From: Acholeplasmataceae bacterium
Lineage (GTDB): Bacteria; Bacillota_I; Bacilli_A; ML615J-28; CAG-698
Direction: 5' to 3'
DNA length: 7,299 nt
NCBI GenBank assembly: GCA_012841765.1
Contig: DUUA01000107.1
Location: 1 to 7,299, forward strand
The notes beneath the pieces were generated by a model. The model had not been told where the DNA came from, did no database searches, and saw nothing but the letters and a program-made list of their open reading frames with translations. Each line of letters begins with the position of its first letter. The first letter of the stretch is position 1. Made by a program: the position numbers and the translations under genes. Shown one piece after another: positions 1,422-7,079 of this stretch.

Positions 1422-1449
1422 TTGACTTAAATTTAAAAATCGTTATAAT
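1422..1449 (+). promoter_or_regulatory. SigA-type promoter driving the fluoride riboswitch
   Basis: TTGACT at 1422-1427 and TATAAT at 1444-1449 are separated by 16 nt. Transcription would begin near 1455-1457, at the first G residues of the aptamer, which is the arrangement expected for a riboswitch-only leader. The 38 nt between the upstream terminator and this promoter show nothing but A/T-rich sequence. Confidence 0.88.
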
Positions 1450-1452
1450 AAC

Positions 1453-1540
1453 TATAGGGAATGATGTCTCCCCTAGTATTACTAAAACTGCAATTTGCTA
1501 ATGACTTCTACAGCTTTTTTGGTGTAGATTTTTTTTATTT
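1453..1540 (+). ncRNA. Fluoride riboswitch (crcB motif) with terminator-type expression platform
   Basis: The leader carries the conserved crcB-motif blocks in order: TATAGGGAATGATG (1453-1466), CTCCCC (1468-1473), AAACTGC (1485-1491) and GCTAATGACTTCTAC (1497-1511). The last block differs by one base from the Bacillus cereus fluoride aptamer as I remember it. GGGA (1457-1460) can form the pseudoknot with TCCC (1469-1472), GUC (1466-1468) can pair with GAC (1503-1505) for P1, and GCA/UGC (1490-1492, 1496-1498) gives the second stem. A small extra hairpin, TAGT/ACTA, lies at 1474-1484 in the variable linker. The aptamer's 3' end runs into UCUACA (1507-1512), which pairs with UGUAGA (1523-1528) and is followed by eight Us (1529-1536). 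Fluoride binding should stabilise P1, prevent that terminator and switch expression on. The family and its ligand are established knowledge; the switching mechanism here is inferred. Confidence 0.94.
1507..1536 (+). terminator. Riboswitch-controlled intrinsic terminator
   Basis: UCUACA (1507-1512) pairs with UGUAGA (1523-1528) around a U-rich loop, followed by eight Us. The 5' arm includes the final conserved bases of the fluoride aptamer, so aptamer and terminator compete. The 6-bp stem is short, which suits a readily switched terminator. Confidence 0.82.
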
Positions 1541-1551
1541 AGGAGAGAAAA

Positions 1552-2781
1552 ATGTTATTAAGTATTTCATTAATTATTATAATAAGTTTAATTTTAGGCG
1601 AAGGTTTTAAATTCTTAAAATTACCTCCTATTTTAGGTATGCTTGCAACAGGTATCTTGATGGGACCACATTTGTTAGATTTAATAAATATTAATATTTT
1701 AAACATATCAGCAGAGTTAAGACAAATTGCTTTAATTGTGATTTTGATTAGAGCAGGACTTTCTTTAAATCTAAATGATTTAAAAAAAGTTGGAAGACCC
1801 GCAATTTTATTGTCATTTGTTCCAGCAACTATTGAAATCTTAGCCATTACGTTTCTTGCTCCGTTAATTTTGGGGGTAAGTTATACGACTGCGTTAATTA
1901 TGGGGGCAGTAGTTGCTGCGGTATCTCCAGCAGTAGTTGTTCCAAAAATGATTGGTTTAATTAATAATGGATATGGTCAAGACAAAAAAGTTCCTCAAAT
2001 GATTTTAGCTGGAGCTTCAATGGATGATGTTTATGTTATTGTTTTGTTTTATGCGTTTTTAAAACTAGGGCAAGGAGAGAGCTTTTCTTTTTCAACAATC
2101 ATTAATGTACCTATATCTATTATTTTAGGAATTGGAATTGGATTTTTACTTGGGTATTTGATTTCATTATTTTTTAAAAAACTACATATGCGTGATACGG
2201 TTAAGATTTTGATTATATTTGCTTTAGCTTTCTTATTTGTTGCATTAGAGAATTCTTTAAGTAAAATAATCACAATAAGTGGATTGATAGCAGTAATGTC
2301 GTTTGGTATATCTTTAAACAATTTTTATCCAGAATTAACTGAACGAATAGTTAAAAGGTTTGAGAAGATATGGTTTATTTCAGAAATAATGTTATTTGTA
2401 CTTGTAGGCGCTTTAGTTGATGTCAGGGTTTTAATAGATGTGGGACTTTTAGCAATTGCTCTTATAATACTTTCAATGATATTTAGAATGATTGGCGTTT
2501 ATTTGTCTTTAATAAAGACAAAATTTAATAGAAAAGAAAAATTATTTACAGCTATATCTTATATGCCCAAAGCAACAGTGCAGGCAGCAATTGGAGCTAT
2601 TCCTTTATCACTTGGAATTGCTCATGGAGAATTAATATTAATGGTATCCGTTTTAGCTATTATTATTACTGCTCCAGTTGGAGCAGTGCTAATGGATAAA
2701 ACTTATAAAAAGCTTTTAGCAAGCCCACAAATGGGCTTAGAGAATACTAATAAAGTAATTAAGAATTGTGAGGTATCTTGA
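1552..2781 (+). CDS. CPA-family (NhaP/KefB-like) cation:proton antiporter under fluoride riboswitch control
   Basis: A 409-residue polytopic membrane protein, of normal length for a sodium/hydrogen exchanger membrane domain, with about 12 hydrophobic segments and no C-terminal TrkA/RCK domain. Family landmarks are LPPILGMLATGILMGP (24-39), the IRAGLSL segment (66-72) corresponding to the usual F/L-R-x-GL stretch, AAVSPAVVVPKM (122-133) replacing the commoner TDPV motif, and GASMDDV (154-160), whose tandem aspartates D158/D159 occupy the ion-binding position. YMPKATVQAAIG (337-348) is typical of bacterial NhaP-like members. Family knowledge gives exchange of Na+ or K+ for H+ at the cytoplasmic membrane. 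The AGGAGAG site at 1541-1547 supports the ATG. The fluoride riboswitch upstream implies a role in fluoride stress, perhaps by correcting the acidification caused by HF entry or, less conventionally, by moving fluoride. The ion is unknown. Confidence 0.9.
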   Translation: MLLSISLIIIISLILGEGFKFLKLPPILGMLATGILMGPHLLDLININILNISAELRQIALIVILIRAGLSLNLNDLKKVGRPAILLSFVPATIEILAITFLAPLILGVSYTTALIMGAVVAAVSPAVVVPKMIGLINNGYGQDKKVPQMILAGASMDDVYVIVLFYAFLKLGQGESFSFSTIINVPISIILGIGIGFLLGYLISLFFKKLHMRDTVKILIIFALAFLFVALENSLSKIITISGLIAVMSFGISLNNFYPELTERIVKRFEKIWFISEIMLFVLVGALVDVRVLIDVGLLAIALIILSMIFRMIGVYLSLIKTKFNRKEKLFTAISYMPKATVQAAIGAIPLSLGIAHGELILMVSVLAIIITAPVGAVLMDKTYKKLLASPQMGLENTNKVIKNCEVS

Positions 2782-3461
2782 TGAAGTTAAAATATTTAAA
2801 GTTTGAATCATCTCATTATATTTTTCATTATTATAAAAATTCTTGGGCTGAAAAAGAATTAGAGAAAGTAGTTTCTACCCAAGAAGAGAGTTATAATATG
2901 ATCATCGATTTTTTTAAAATAGAAGTTCCTTTTAAAATAAATTATTATTTATTAAATTCTCCAAAAGAAATAGGAATAGCCTATGGCGATAATGAAGATT
3001 CAAATGGATTTGCAAGAAAACCTAATCATATTTACGCAGTATATAATAAAGATATTAAATGTGTTGGTCCTCATGAGGATGCTCATATAATTTCTTATTT
3101 ATTAAATACACCAAAATCTTGTTTTGTTAGAGAAGGTATAGCAATGTTTTTTGATAAAAATTGGTGGAAAAAGCCAAATATAGATTGGGTTTTAGAGTTT
3201 GTTGAAAAAGGGAAATATGAAAGGGTTATAGATTTAATAGCCGATGATTATTTTTATACAATAAATTGTGCTATTAGTTATCCAATTGCTGGTGCATTTA
3301 CCAAATACCTAATTGATATCTACGGAGTTGAAAAATATCTTAATTTTTATAAGAGTCATGAAGATATTAAAGAGGCTATAAAAATGATATATAATAAACA
3401 GCTAAAAGAATTGGAAAATGATTTTTTAGCTAATATTAATAATTTTAGTAAAAAATTTTAA
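2781..3461 (+). CDS. Small cytoplasmic HExxH zinc-metallopeptidase-like protein (peptidase MA-like)
   Basis: This 226-residue protein carries a zincin motif HEDAH (H98, E99, H102) followed 16 residues later by REGIAMFF, where E118 fits the third zinc ligand of gluzincin-type (peptidase MA-like) enzymes. The order, HExxH then an EG-xA-x-FF helix, is the usual layout for small 'peptidase MA family' proteins. There is no signal peptide or membrane segment, so it should be cytoplasmic. Its ATG shares one base with the antiporter's TGA stop (2779-2781), and GAGG at 2770-2773 lies 7 nt upstream. A TTG at 2778 is less well placed. It is therefore translationally coupled to the antiporter and under the same fluoride riboswitch. 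Substrate unknown; peptidase activity is inferred from the motif alone. Confidence 0.75.
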   Translation: MKLKYLKFESSHYIFHYYKNSWAEKELEKVVSTQEESYNMIIDFFKIEVPFKINYYLLNSPKEIGIAYGDNEDSNGFARKPNHIYAVYNKDIKCVGPHEDAHIISYLLNTPKSCFVREGIAMFFDKNWWKKPNIDWVLEFVEKGKYERVIDLIADDYFYTINCAISYPIAGAFTKYLIDIYGVEKYLNFYKSHEDIKEAIKMIYNKQLKELENDFLANINNFSKKF

Positions 3462-3489
3462 AAAAGATCTTAAATTAAGGTCTTTTTTT
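3461..3489 (+). terminator. Intrinsic terminator of the fluoride-switch operon
   Basis: AAAAAGATCTTA (3461-3472) pairs with TAAGGTCTTTTT (3476-3487), with one T-G wobble and a 3-nt loop, and runs into a seven-T tract (3483-3489). It begins on the last base of the metallopeptidase stop codon and closes the operon. Confidence 0.88.
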
Positions 3490-3521
3490 GTTATCATTAA
3501 GATTTTAAAAAAGATGCTTGT

Positions 3522-3550
3522 TTGACAGTAACAAATATACAAGATATAAT
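3522..3550 (+). promoter_or_regulatory. Consensus SigA promoter of the HyuA/deacetylase operon
   Basis: TTGACA at 3522-3527 and TATAAT at 3545-3550 with a 17-nt spacer match the vegetative consensus exactly. No palindrome or leader structure is evident in the short leader (about 3557-3584), so strong, possibly constitutive transcription is inferred. Confidence 0.92.
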
Positions 3551-3570
3551 GAATACAGATAGAGATTGAA

Positions 3571-3577
3571 AAGGAGG
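3571..3577 (+). promoter_or_regulatory. Ribosome binding site supporting a TTG start
   Basis: AAGGAGG is a full Shine-Dalgarno sequence 7 nt before TTG at 3585. The first in-frame ATG lies six codons into the gene, inside the nucleotide-binding loop, so TTG is the real start. Confidence 0.88.
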
Positions 3578-3584
3578 CTGTAAA

Positions 3585-5252
3585 TTGATAATAGGATTAG
3601 ATATGGGAGGTACCCATATAGATGCGGTTATTATAATGAATGGCTATATTATAAAAAGAATTAAAAAACCAATTGATTTTTTAAATATTTTTGAATCTAT
3701 TTGGATGGTATTGAGAGAATTGATTATTGGAATTGACAAGTCTAAAATTAAACGAATACATTTAAGTACAACAGTTTCAACAAATGCGATTGTGGAAAAC
3801 AACATATCACCTGTAGGGATGATTATTCAAAGCGGTCCTGGTTTAGGAAACGAGTTTTTAAAGGTAGGAAAAGAAAGTGTTTTTTTATCTGGATATGTAG
3901 ATCATCGAGGGAAAATCGTTGAACCTCTAAAAATGGATGAATTAGATAGTTCAATAAAGATATTTAAACAAAATGATATTAATTCTATTGCTGTTGTTAC
4001 TAAATTTTCCCCAAGAAATCCTAACAACGAGATAAGAATTAAAGAGCATCTAATAAATGACTTTACATCTATTAGTTTAGGCCATACTCTCTCTGGAAAA
4101 CTAAATTTTCCAAGAAGGGTGTATACAGCTTATTTTAATGCAGCTGTTTATGATACTTTTAATAATTTTTCAGAGAATTTAAAAAAATCTTTAGAAAAAG
4201 AAGATATAATGGCGCCTGTTTATATTTTGAAGGCTGATGGGGGTTTAATGAATTTAGCTGCTGCCAATAAAATTCCGATTGAATCAATTCTTTCTGGTCC
4301 TGCAGCAAGTTTTATGGGAATGCAAGCTATGATGGAAACAAAAGAAGATGCAGTTCTATTAGATATTGGCGGGACAACAACTGATGTTTTCTTTTTAGCT
4401 GATGGAGTTCCTTTGTTTGAACCTTTGGGCATTAGAATAGGAAATTATAAAACATTAGTTAGAGCAATTTATAGTTTCTCAATCGGTTTAGGTGGTGATA
4501 GTAGTATTAATATAATAAATGGAAACATTTCAATCGGGCCTAAAAGAGAAGGATATCCTTGTGGTTTTGGAGGAATTAATCCAACTCCAACTGATGCTAT
4601 GATTGTTTTGGGATTAATGAAAGGAAATTTTAAAGGTAGAGCAGATTCTTCAATGGAAATTTTAGGCAGAGAATTAAATTTGTCAAAAGAAGAAGTTTCA
4701 AAGCATATTTTAGATAAAATGGGTGAAATGATTAAAAGTAAAGTGAAAGAGCTTTTGTTAGAAATTAATAGTCAGCCAGTATATACCATTAAGGAGTTAT
4801 TACACGGAAAAAAAATAGAACCAAAAAGGATTAATATTATTGGCGGGCCTGCAAAAATAATGAGTGCAATTTTAGAAGATAAATTTAATATTCCTTGTTT
4901 TTATCCGAAAAATTATGATGTGGCTAATGCTATAGGTGCAGCATTTGCTAAAACAACAGCAGAGATTACTTTAATAGCTGATACATCTCAAGGGATATTA
5001 TCTGTACCTGAAGCTGGTATTTTTGAAAAGATTAATAAAAGTTATTCGCTTTTCAATGCTCGTGAAAGAGCATTAAAATTAGTTGAAGAAAAGGCTATAT
5101 CTTTAGGTGCAAATTATGAAAATATCGAATCAGAGGTAACTGAAGAAAGTAGCTTTAATATGGTTAAAGGTTTTTATACAACTGGTAAAAATATTAGAAT
5201 TAAAGCGCAAATAAAGCCAGGTCTTAGTGATCAGTTTAGAGGTGAAAAATAA
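3585..5252 (+). CDS. Hydantoinase/oxoprolinase family protein (HyuA-like, ASKHA fold)
   Basis: A 555-residue cytoplasmic protein of the HyuA/N-methylhydantoinase A/acetone carboxylase-beta superfamily, whose members use ATP in opening or carboxylating amide and carbonyl substrates. The N-terminal domain (about 1-175) has the phosphate loop GLDMGGTHIDAV (4-15) and STTVSTNAIVE (61-71). The main domain (about 178-460) has KADGGL (216-221), SGPAAS (237-242), the second phosphate motif LLDIGGTTTDV (258-268), GLGGDSS (301-307) and IGGPAK (419-424). The last 90 residues are variable. Full-length HyuA/HyuB systems need HyuB, which is absent here. GGDS at 303-306 and ADGG at 217-220 differ from the more usual GGGS and SNGG. 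It starts with TTG behind a strong AAGGAGG. The deacetylase-family gene overlaps its stop by one base, implying coupled synthesis and a shared pathway. The substrate cannot be read from sequence. Confidence 0.9.
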   Translation: MIIGLDMGGTHIDAVIIMNGYIIKRIKKPIDFLNIFESIWMVLRELIIGIDKSKIKRIHLSTTVSTNAIVENNISPVGMIIQSGPGLGNEFLKVGKESVFLSGYVDHRGKIVEPLKMDELDSSIKIFKQNDINSIAVVTKFSPRNPNNEIRIKEHLINDFTSISLGHTLSGKLNFPRRVYTAYFNAAVYDTFNNFSENLKKSLEKEDIMAPVYILKADGGLMNLAAANKIPIESILSGPAASFMGMQAMMETKEDAVLLDIGGTTTDVFFLADGVPLFEPLGIRIGNYKTLVRAIYSFSIGLGGDSSINIINGNISIGPKREGYPCGFGGINPTPTDAMIVLGLMKGNFKGRADSSMEILGRELNLSKEEVSKHILDKMGEMIKSKVKELLLEINSQPVYTIKELLHGKKIEPKRINIIGGPAKIMSAILEDKFNIPCFYPKNYDVANAIGAAFAKTTAEITLIADTSQGILSVPEAGIFEKINKSYSLFNARERALKLVEEKAISLGANYENIESEVTEESSFNMVKGFYTTGKNIRIKAQIKPGLSDQFRGEK

Positions 5253-6562
5253 TGTTAAAAGCAAAAAATAAATTAGGTCTTGTTTTCTTTCCTGCATTTG
5301 ATTGGGCAATAAGTCCTACTCATCCCGAAAGAGAAGAAAGACTTCTTTATACTCAAGATCAAATTTTTGAAGAAGGAATAGAAGATATCGAGGGAATTAA
5401 ATTTTATAATCCATCTTTAGCTGAACAAAAAGATATACAAAGAGTACATTTTTGTATTCCAAGTGTAAGAGCCAGATTGACAGAATCTCATTTTATTTCT
5501 TCTGGGGGGGCTATTAGAGCATTTAAAGCAGTTATGGATAAGGAAGTTGATAAAGCATTTGCTTTAGTTAGGCCTCCTGGACATCACGCACATAGAGTTG
5601 TTTATGGAGATAGAGGGTTTTGTGTAATTAATATAGAAGCTATAATGATAGAAAAGATTAGACAAGAATATGGGCCTCTAAAAGTAGCTATAATTGATAC
5701 AGATTGTCACCATGGAGACGGAACACAAGATATATATTGGAATGATAAAGAAACTTTGTTTATATCTTTTCACCAAGATGGAAAAACTCTTTATCCAGGT
5801 ACAGGGTCAATCGATGAATTTGGAGGACCAGCTGCATATGGATACAATATTAATATCCCTCTTCCTCCAGAAACAGGGGACGAAGGGTTTTTATATGTTT
5901 TAGAAAATGTGGTTTTACCAATTTTAGATGAATTTAAACCTGATATTATTATAAATTCTGCCGGACAAGATAATCACTATAGTGATCCTCTTACTAATAT
6001 GAACTTTTCAGCTCAAGGATATGCAGAATTAAATCACCGCTTAAATCCTGATATTGCTGTTTTAGAGGGTGGATACTCCATTGAAGGGGCTCTTCCATAT
6101 ATAAATCTAGGTATCATACTTGCTATGGCTGGACTTGATTACTCGAATGTAAAAGAACCAGATTTTGATAGGAGCAAATTAGTTCAATCTCAAAAAATTA
6201 CAGATCATATAAAAAAACTATCAGAAATAGTTTATGAAAATTGGAAAAATAAAGAGGTATTAAAAAAAGAAAAATTTAAGAATTTAAAAGCTGTAGAAAG
6301 AAATAGAAGAATCTATTATGATACAGATGGGATTATGGAAAACCAGACACAAAAATATAAAATTTGCAAGAAATGTTCTGGGGTCAATACAATACATTCA
6401 AATAGTGATAGAGGAGATAATATACTTGCCATAACTATTCCTAGAGATAGTTGTATAGAGTGTATAAAGGAAGGACATGAGTTATTTAAGGTTAGTTCTA
6501 AAAAAACATTTACCCAAATTATTCTTCAAGATAGAATTAATGATCAATATTATTCTAAGTAG
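5252..6562 (+). CDS. Histone deacetylase-superfamily amidohydrolase with C-terminal four-Cys domain
   Basis: A 436-residue zinc amidohydrolase of the HDAC/acetylpolyamine amidohydrolase/AcuC superfamily. The catalytic domain (about 6-320) is complete: HPEREERL (24-31), RPPGHHA with the catalytic His pair H111/H112, zinc ligands D151 and H153 in DTDCHHGDG, FHQDGKTLYPGTG (173-185), the third ligand D240 in SAGQDNHYSDPL, and transition-state Tyr275 in LEGGY. The position before D240 is Gln239 where most relatives have Phe. Beyond the usual roughly 310-370 residues lies a lysine-rich linker and a tail with C372-xx-C375 and C401-xx-C404, suggesting a small zinc ribbon. The ATG overlaps the HyuA-like stop by one base, with GAGGTG 7 nt upstream. 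Substrates could be an acetylated polyamine, a protein lysine or another amide. It ends in tandem stops TAG-TAA. Hydrolase class is firm, substrate unknown. Confidence 0.92.
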   Translation: MLKAKNKLGLVFFPAFDWAISPTHPEREERLLYTQDQIFEEGIEDIEGIKFYNPSLAEQKDIQRVHFCIPSVRARLTESHFISSGGAIRAFKAVMDKEVDKAFALVRPPGHHAHRVVYGDRGFCVINIEAIMIEKIRQEYGPLKVAIIDTDCHHGDGTQDIYWNDKETLFISFHQDGKTLYPGTGSIDEFGGPAAYGYNINIPLPPETGDEGFLYVLENVVLPILDEFKPDIIINSAGQDNHYSDPLTNMNFSAQGYAELNHRLNPDIAVLEGGYSIEGALPYINLGIILAMAGLDYSNVKEPDFDRSKLVQSQKITDHIKKLSEIVYENWKNKEVLKKEKFKNLKAVERNRRIYYDTDGIMENQTQKYKICKKCSGVNTIHSNSDRGDNILAITIPRDSCIECIKEGHELFKVSSKKTFTQIILQDRINDQYYSK

Positions 6563-6574
6563 TAAATTCCAAAT

Positions 6575-6604
6575 AAAAACCAGAATAAAATATTCTGGTT
6601 TTTT
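6575..6604. terminator. Bidirectional terminator between convergent genes
   Basis: AAAAACCAGAATA (6575-6587) pairs perfectly with TATTCTGGTTTTT (6591-6603) around a 3-nt loop. T6599-6604 serves the + strand gene and A6575-6579 gives the U-tract for the - strand gene. The - strand stop codon (6605-6603) overlaps the stem edge. Confidence 0.92.
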
Positions 6605-7079
6605 ATGTTAATAACTTATTAATGTCTTCTTCAGTTAGACGGAAGATTGTCCAATCATTTAGTGGCTTTGCTCCAAGATTTAAATAGAAATCTATTGCAG
6701 GCTTATTCCAATTTAAGCACATCCAGTCTAATCTTGAAGCATTAATTTTTTTAGCTATTTTTACAACTTCTAAAAATAGTTTTTTGCCATATCCTTTTTG
6801 TCTATATTCATTATATACAAAGATATCTTCAAGATAAATATTAGCTTTTCCAAAGAAGGTTGAGTAGTTATAAAAATATAGAGCAAATCCAATGGGAATA
6901 CTGTTTTCTTCTGCTATTAATACTTCAGCTTGTTTTAAATCAAAAATTGATTTTTCAATGCTGCTTTGGGTAGCTACTACTTGTTCTTCCATTTTTTCAT
7001 ATTTAGCAATTCCTAAAATTAAATCTAGTATTAGCTTTGAGTCTATTCTTTTAGCTTTTCTAATTGTAAAATTATTCAT
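6603..7079 (-). CDS. GNAT N-acetyltransferase, SSAT (diamine/thialysine acetyltransferase)-like
   Basis: A 158-residue GNAT enzyme, full length for the SSAT-like branch, transferring acetyl from acetyl-CoA to an amine. Features: the N-terminal IRKAKRIDSKLI segment, YLEDIFVYNEYR (82-93) as strand beta4, the acetyl-CoA pyrophosphate loop RQKGYG (93-98), and WNKPAIDFYLNLGA (124-137) with Tyr132 at the general-acid position. LEDIFV, the WN-x-PAI-x-FY stretch and the final DWTIFRL resemble spermidine/spermine N1-acetyltransferase and its thialysine-acetylating paralogues. The ATG overlaps the upstream ThpR-like stop in an ATGA arrangement, with AAAGGA (7091-7086) 6 nt upstream, so the two are co-transcribed. 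It converges on the deacetylase-superfamily gene. The acceptor may be a polyamine, a lysine analogue or another small amine. Confidence 0.9.
   Translation of the reverse strand: MNNFTIRKAKRIDSKLILDLILGIAKYEKMEEQVVATQSSIEKSIFDLKQAEVLIAEENSIPIGFALYFYNYSTFFGKANIYLEDIFVYNEYRQKGYGKKLFLEVVKIAKKINASRLDWMCLNWNKPAIDFYLNLGAKPLNDWTIFRLTEEDINKLLT

Follow-up and report, generated by a model that had tools for sequence, protein, structure and literature searches.

A fluoride riboswitch leads into the gene for an SLC9B/NHA2-like cation:proton antiporter in the window (the whole 7,299-nucleotide stretch of Acholeplasmataceae DNA analysed here), and related antiporters, likewise SLC9B-like, often lie next to the only fluoride riboswitch found in a genome that has neither CrcB nor CLC. 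The pairing of riboswitch and antiporter is already known in kind; the breadth of its recurrence is new here. A 2024 review accounts for such pairs by pH balance in general. We give about an even chance to a more specific function, the resetting of ion gradients under fluoride, and a clearly smaller one to the export of fluoride by the antiporter itself.

The riboswitch and its expression platform

The RF01734 covariance model matches the window over its full length, at 41.2 bits against a gathering score of 34 (E 6.1e-9; Table 1). The initial annotation had read a crcB motif, or fluoride riboswitch, in this leader, had put it at 1453-1512 and had proposed the RF01734 search as a check; the search bears it out with slightly wider borders. 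P1, P2 and the long-range pseudoknot of the class are all present, and the expression platform is mutually exclusive with the aptamer, since the 5' arm of the terminator-like hairpin overlaps both the pseudoknot and the conserved 3' end of the aptamer, with U1507 and C1508 used by both structures. In all these features the window resembles the known RF01734 class, from which it differs by an extra hairpin between P1 and P2. Of 52 antiporter-linked aptamers that could be parsed, 41 have a hairpin with a stem of at least 3 at this place, and the sequences that pair in it vary widely; the count was made without a shuffle control. That count leaves 28 of 88 riboswitch loci unparsed, and with just two CrcB-linked and one CLC-linked aptamer parsed the extra hairpin cannot be called antiporter-specific.

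It is very improbable that the match is non-functional, decayed or due to chance. In favour of a decayed copy, the window has U-U as its central pseudoknot pair and scores lower than many relatives, but the E value, the retention of every column that is invariant in an alignment of 24 aptamers, and the presence of a riboswitch in the same place in the nearest relatives argue against it. Counted over those 24 sequences, 90.6% of the cells of four pseudoknot pairs are paired. Three of the pairs show a two-sided change, each in one sequence and apparently in one and the same (L037), and the second pair is A-U in 23 of the sequences, with G-C in the remaining one. Weak Rfam matches elsewhere in the window, at 5853-6012 and 6553-6606, are far below their own gathering scores and were dismissed.

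Fluoride ON switches commonly have this layout, with a terminator that is blocked by the ligand-bound aptamer. At 91 of 106 loci a terminator-like hairpin starts inside the aptamer tail, compared with an expectation of 47.8 from shuffled sequences, a modest contrast in AT-rich DNA and one for which the search picked another pairing in the window than RNAfold did; this count supersedes a first one of 89 of 103 against 61 in plain shuffles. The window hairpin is absent from the output of a consensus terminator scan of the window. The promoter that had been placed directly before the leader corresponds to a promoter-like site with 11 of 12 consensus bases, and over the whole window such sites show no excess (43 against 45.5 expected from shuffles). 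Between the upstream genes and the riboswitch lies a palindrome, AAAAGATGAGAATATTCTCATCTTTT (1353-1378), possibly a two-way terminator.

Table 1. Features of the riboswitch-antiporter locus, in window coordinates
Feature	Position	Strand	Basis or remark
Putative sigma-70-type promoter, TTGACT-16 nt-TATAAT	1422-1449	+	11/12 consensus bases
Fluoride riboswitch aptamer, RF01734	1448-1517	+	Rfam covariance match, end to end
P1, GGGA with UCCC	1457-1460 with 1469-1472	+	sequence and fold
Pseudoknot from P1 loop	1463-1467 with 1504-1508	+	aptamer alignment; U1465 and U1506 unpaired
Extra hairpin between P1 and P2	1474-1477 with 1481-1484	+	also in relatives
P2, GCA with UGC	1490-1492 with 1496-1498	+	sequence and fold
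Conserved segment ACUUCUAC	1504-1511	+	sequence and fold
Terminator-like hairpin, UCUACA with UGUAGA	1507-1512 with 1523-1528	+	RNAfold, -8.5 kcal/mol
U tract, eight U	1529-1536	+	directly after terminator-like hairpin
Ribosome-binding site AGGAGA	1541-1546	+	read from sequence; 5 nt before ATG at 1552
SLC9B/NHA2-like cation:proton antiporter, 409 aa	1552-2781	+	PF00999; sequence and structure-model comparison
226-aa ORF	2781-3461	+	overlaps antiporter stop (ATGA); probable second gene of transcript

The antiporter and its probable ion

The gene behind the leader encodes a PF00999 protein (166.1 bits, cut-off 26.2), in agreement with the antiporter gene of the initial annotation. Its best solved relative by sequence is NHA2/SLC9B2 (PDB 7p1i and 7b4l, 160 and 157 bits), and Foldseek with the antiporter model also places NHA2 first (TMq 0.82, 30% identity). 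NhaP-type proteins (MjNhaP1, PaNhaP) score low by sequence, reaching 42 bits where NHA2 reaches 160. In the alignment the aspartate pair of NHA2 has its counterparts in D158 and D159, and its Glu, Arg and Lys have theirs in E95, R312 and K340, which together with the PF00999 match places the protein in the SLC9B/NHA (CPA2) family. The two also share the PF00999-type fold and the SPAVVVP and PKATVQAA motifs. Identity is only about 30%, and the extra N-terminal helix of mammalian NHA2 is absent from the window protein, with model residues 1-390 aligning to NHA2 113-517; it is therefore better called bacterial SLC9B-like than NHA2 itself. The family models of narrower scope stay below their cut-offs: NhaP/a_cpa1 (TIGR00831, NCBIfam) at 33.1 against 279.6, the CPA2 family TIGR00932 at 46.7 against a curated 238.3, and the potassium/proton antiporter PRK05326 (NCBIfam), with the best of three models, at 100.6 against 355.

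Among 131 aligned antiporters no variation is seen at E95, S125-A127, P131 and R312; D159 and K340 are each conserved in 130 and D158 in 128; the short, split ORF of L031 was omitted from this count and from the tree. E95, R312 and K340 presumably have the roles of the corresponding residues in NHA2-type exchangers. The initial annotation had pointed out the DD at 158-159 and the SPAVVV (residues 125-130), both of which are there, and had taken them to suggest an ion differing from that of NhaP. That reading was abandoned, as both are found in NHA2, the closest solved relative; by sequence comparison NhaP is the wrong yardstick, and the two motifs are normal for the SLC9B/NHA2-like family. The accessible text of PMC8850199 describes the aligned NHA2 aspartates as the ion-binding DD motif and NHA2/SLC9B2 as a Na+/H+ exchanger for which Na+/Li+ exchange has been proposed. 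As an SLC9B-like exchanger with a conserved two-aspartate site, the window protein most likely exchanges Na+ (or Li+) for H+.

None of the seven proteins of the window that were scanned matches PF02537 (CrcB) or PF00654 (CLC), consistent with the earlier view that an antiporter rather than a fluoride channel stands behind this riboswitch. Fluc/CrcB and CLC-F belong to protein families unrelated to the antiporter, and share with it the status of riboswitch targets.

Recurrence of the riboswitch-antiporter pairing

A 2024 review (PMC11139923), in its accessible part, names the exporters Fluc/CrcB and CLC-F as the most common targets of the fluoride riboswitch and Na+/H+ antiporters as the next-most common class, credits Baker 2012 for the control of these antiporters, and ascribes them in general terms to pH homeostasis. 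The initial annotation had counted antiporters among the rarer targets, a view given up in the light of this ranking and of the two class-wide counts below.

Relatives were fetched by protein similarity alone, ignoring the RNA, which gave at least 80 genome loci and four viral-contig loci. In the first two sets of 13 loci scanned with Rfam, an upstream riboswitch above threshold was present in 12 of one set and in 11 of the other, L073 being one of the 11. Over the 84 fetched loci, a riboswitch lies at most 400 nt upstream of the antiporter in 70, and in L073 one more heads the operon; of the 13 without, one has just 33 nt of upstream DNA. The count of 70 uses a covariance model built from the first matches and the window, with weak and missing cases run through Rfam, and includes two loci, L064 and L071, seen by our own model only (26.4 and 24 bits in Rfam, under the gathering score). 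RF01734 is also above threshold upstream of all seven plasmid- or phage-labelled relatives examined. These are six of 798 matching plasmid records, from Clostridia, Fusobacteria and cyanobacteria at 33-52% identity, and one phage-labelled record, with enterobacterial part-matches left out.

Counting from the riboswitch side gives a similar picture. A sample of 296 genomes from the class of G001, an Acholeplasmataceae MAG, has 75 riboswitch places at E <=0.001 (67 over the gathering score), and at 64 of the 75 an antiporter follows within 500 nt on the same strand. In a sample from the class of G008 (Anaerobacterium; 162 genomes, 43 riboswitch places), 30 loci were read, and the riboswitch leads to the antiporter in 17, to CrcB in six, to CLC in two and to other genes in five; leaving out G008, which was picked for its antiporter, the count is 16 of 29. 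Among 45 genomes selected for the antiporter, RF01734 is found in 42, in 38 of these at a single place, and 28 of the 30 riboswitch loci fetched from such genomes contain the antiporter. A stricter RNA filter was used on more than 40 genomes, and weak riboswitches may be missed there.

The pairing is not obligate. Of the 91 antiporter genomes counted in the class of G001 (antiporter hits from about 90 bits upward, leaving out the fragmentary G256 and G102, neither with CrcB), 63 have a linked riboswitch and 28 have none, and a recheck of eight of these 28 with Rfam found no riboswitch. Not every member of the family is thus under fluoride control.

It is improbable that the antiporter is simply a general stress or osmotic gene within a fluoride regulon, with little effect of its own while an unrecognised exporter does the main work. 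Some loci do resemble such a regulon: in L073 the riboswitch is 2.2 kb upstream of the antiporter, and the gene just before the antiporter (within 2720-5001) is one that we take to be UspA-like, with similar first genes after the riboswitches of L113 and L227, and in L256 riboswitch and antiporter are separated by a CBS-domain gene. A published example, as far as the accessible text of PMC5533749 goes, is a riboswitch of Enterobacter cloacae FRM, which drives ppaC, uspA, eno, gpmA and crcB. Yet in 103 of 105 linked loci the distance from the aptamer to the antiporter start is 30-232 nt (median 50), with only the more remote riboswitches of L073 and L256 left out, and the pairing is seen in several phyla.

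Some arrangements of the locus depart from that of the window. L172, the nearest genome relative among the matches listed (79% identity), has tandem fluoride riboswitches (1172-1241 and 1399-1468) before the antiporter. L077 has a second fluoride riboswitch (6634-6694) downstream of the antiporter gene, and in L031 and L136 (isolate G026) the riboswitch-linked antiporter reads as two ORFs.

Fluoride exporters beside the antiporter

Exporter searches covered 45 of the 80 antiporter genome loci, from 45 genomes. CrcB is present in one (G028) and a CLC of any kind in 25, and 20 have neither. The exporter-less 20 consist of 16 MAGs, the complete genome G003 and the isolates G008, G030 and G026, and in one of them, G014, no RF01734 was found. 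By motif, the 25 CLC-bearing genomes divide into nine of chloride type (GSGIP, GREGP), nine of a GREGA type without GEVTP, and seven with none of the searched motifs. A CLC of the GREGA type scores 200 bits to 6d0j, which leaves its role unsure. One genome of that type, G042, has in addition a second CLC with GREGV and GEVTP (L103), the only GEVTP of the CLC-F signature in the 45 genomes; at 426 bits to 6d0j this is a clear CLC-F relative, with the GNNLI/GMGLI block unmatched.

None of the 20 antiporter genomes in the class of G008 has CrcB, compared with 33 of the 142 other genomes (two-sided Fisher p 0.014; leaving out G008, none of 19 and again p 0.014), with all p values here a guide only, as the genomes are related and many are MAGs. 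Counting CrcB or wide-sense CLC (a match to the CLC-F query at about 80 bits or more) gives 4/20 against 57/142 in this class (p 0.09; 0.13 without G008). In the class of G001, where CrcB is rare overall (9 of 296 genomes over cut-off), the exclusion is not significant for CrcB (1/91 against 8/205, p 0.28), for CrcB with riboswitch-linked antiporters only (0/63 against 9/233, p 0.21) or for CrcB or strong CLC-F (2/91 against 10/205, p 0.36). Wide-sense CLC shows no exclusion in either class (4/20 against 33/142 in that of G008, 7/91 against 14/205 in that of G001).

Among the ten top-scoring CLC-F-like hits from the class of G008, three (G378, G406, G483) have the full CLC-F signature, all in genomes without the antiporter. 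The two riboswitch-linked CLCs of this class carry it as well (GNNLI, GREGT, GEVTP), and neither of their genomes belongs to the 20 with the antiporter. Antiporter and exporter occur together in G028 and G062 (CrcB), in G042 (CLC-F) and in G307, whose strong CLC-F hit, like those of G219 and G101, is by score only; the G101 hit has internal stop codons.

These distributions bear on the possibility that the antiporter itself exports fluoride, for example by F-/H+ antiport or with F- coupled to Na+, which we consider tenable though rather unlikely. A fluoride-switched gene in exporter-less genomes favours such a function, as do the predominance of antiporter loci among riboswitches of the selected genomes, the lack of CrcB beside the antiporter in the class of G008, and the confinement of the three full-signature CLC-F genes to antiporter-less genomes; part of PMC11139923 reports that Fluc and CLC-F likewise exclude one another. 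On the other hand, the antiporter has the binding-site residues of a known Na+/H+ exchanger, only one of the samples, which consist of related genomes, gives a significant exclusion of CrcB, wide-sense CLC is not excluded, most of the exporter-less genomes are MAGs and one of them, G014, shows no riboswitch, and four genomes combine the antiporter with an exporter or a strong CLC-F hit. Further, Clostridioides difficile has a CLC and an NhaP-type antiporter in one operon under a fluoride riboswitch (CD0656-7), according to the accessible text of PMC11477304. The window resembles this system in having an antiporter under the riboswitch, a likeness by that paper's description only, and differs from it in that no CLC shares the operon.

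Searches of titles and abstract openings, with most subscription papers and all preprints outside coverage, did not find an SLC9B-like antiporter described as a fluoride exporter, and a 2026 paper (PMC13104614), in its accessible part, still counts two classes of fluoride exporter. If fluoride is exported, a tentative premise, the riboswitch-marked SLC9B/NHA2-like branch would join Fluc and CLC-F as another exporter class, and the antiporter would substitute for these in many anaerobes and mycoplasma relatives thought to be exporter-less. According to parts of PMC11139923, exporters are lacking in reduced-genome groups, for example among Tenericutes, Spirochetes and Fusobacteria. Riboswitch-linked relatives come from members of these phyla (L003; L252 and L253; Brachyspira L064 and L071, the last two at sub-gathering scores), none of them an obligate symbiont to judge by name, and the two from Fusobacteria bear on riboswitch linkage only.

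A proposed fluoride-switched gradient exchanger

The explanation that we rate highest, at roughly even chances, is that the gene is turned on by fluoride and encodes an exchanger of Na+/H+ type, by which the gradients of protons and sodium are reset. The initial annotation had already raised both this countering of acidification and the handling of fluoride itself as possible roles. The above-threshold riboswitch, the overlapping terminator-like hairpin, the likeness to NHA2 and the conserved pairing are consistent with this, and the conserved cation-site residues favour an antiporter that keeps its cation chemistry. The response to fluoride, the ion transported and the direction of transport are what we infer from these parts. 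To judge by the anatomy of the leader, without fluoride RNA 1507-1528 would form a terminator and transcription would end before the gene. With fluoride, if the mechanism of the riboswitch class applies, the pseudoknot would hold 1504-1508, the terminator could not start, and the antiporter and the small downstream gene would be transcribed. Entering HF would acidify the cell and be trapped as F- in proportion to the pH difference, and a fast path for H+/Na+ exchange may restore the balance or lower the trapping. In bacteria without a fluoride exporter, such a reset of the gradients would lessen the harm done by fluoride.

An antiporter that only helped with pH should be found about equally often with and without exporters, and the absence of CrcB from the antiporter genomes of the G008 class, with the 20 of 45 genomes that have neither CrcB nor CLC, argues against so limited a role. 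By reasoning, a Na+/H+ exchanger alone cannot bring the fluoride of the cell below the outside level. The antiporter genomes that lack CrcB and CLC are natural test cases, in which a shift of gradients by this gene can be told from movement of F-.

Other genes of the window

The 226-aa ORF has the look of an HExxH-type metalloprotease, with HEDAH at residue 98 and EGIA at 118, and no Pfam match. It has 56 relatives, of which the few that are named are called hypothetical. Its candidacy as a conserved partner of the antiporter was dropped, as a tblastn search (E 1e-5) of the loci available at that stage gave no match to it. The neighbouring genes encode a TetR-like regulator and hydantoinase-like, deacetylase-like and acetyltransferase proteins, with a ferric-reductase-like match that is weak and under its cut-off; they have no evident link to fluoride. 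Within 3522-6562, a perfect promoter consensus (TTGACA-17-TATAAT) precedes the hydantoinase/oxoprolinase-like and histone-deacetylase-like genes.
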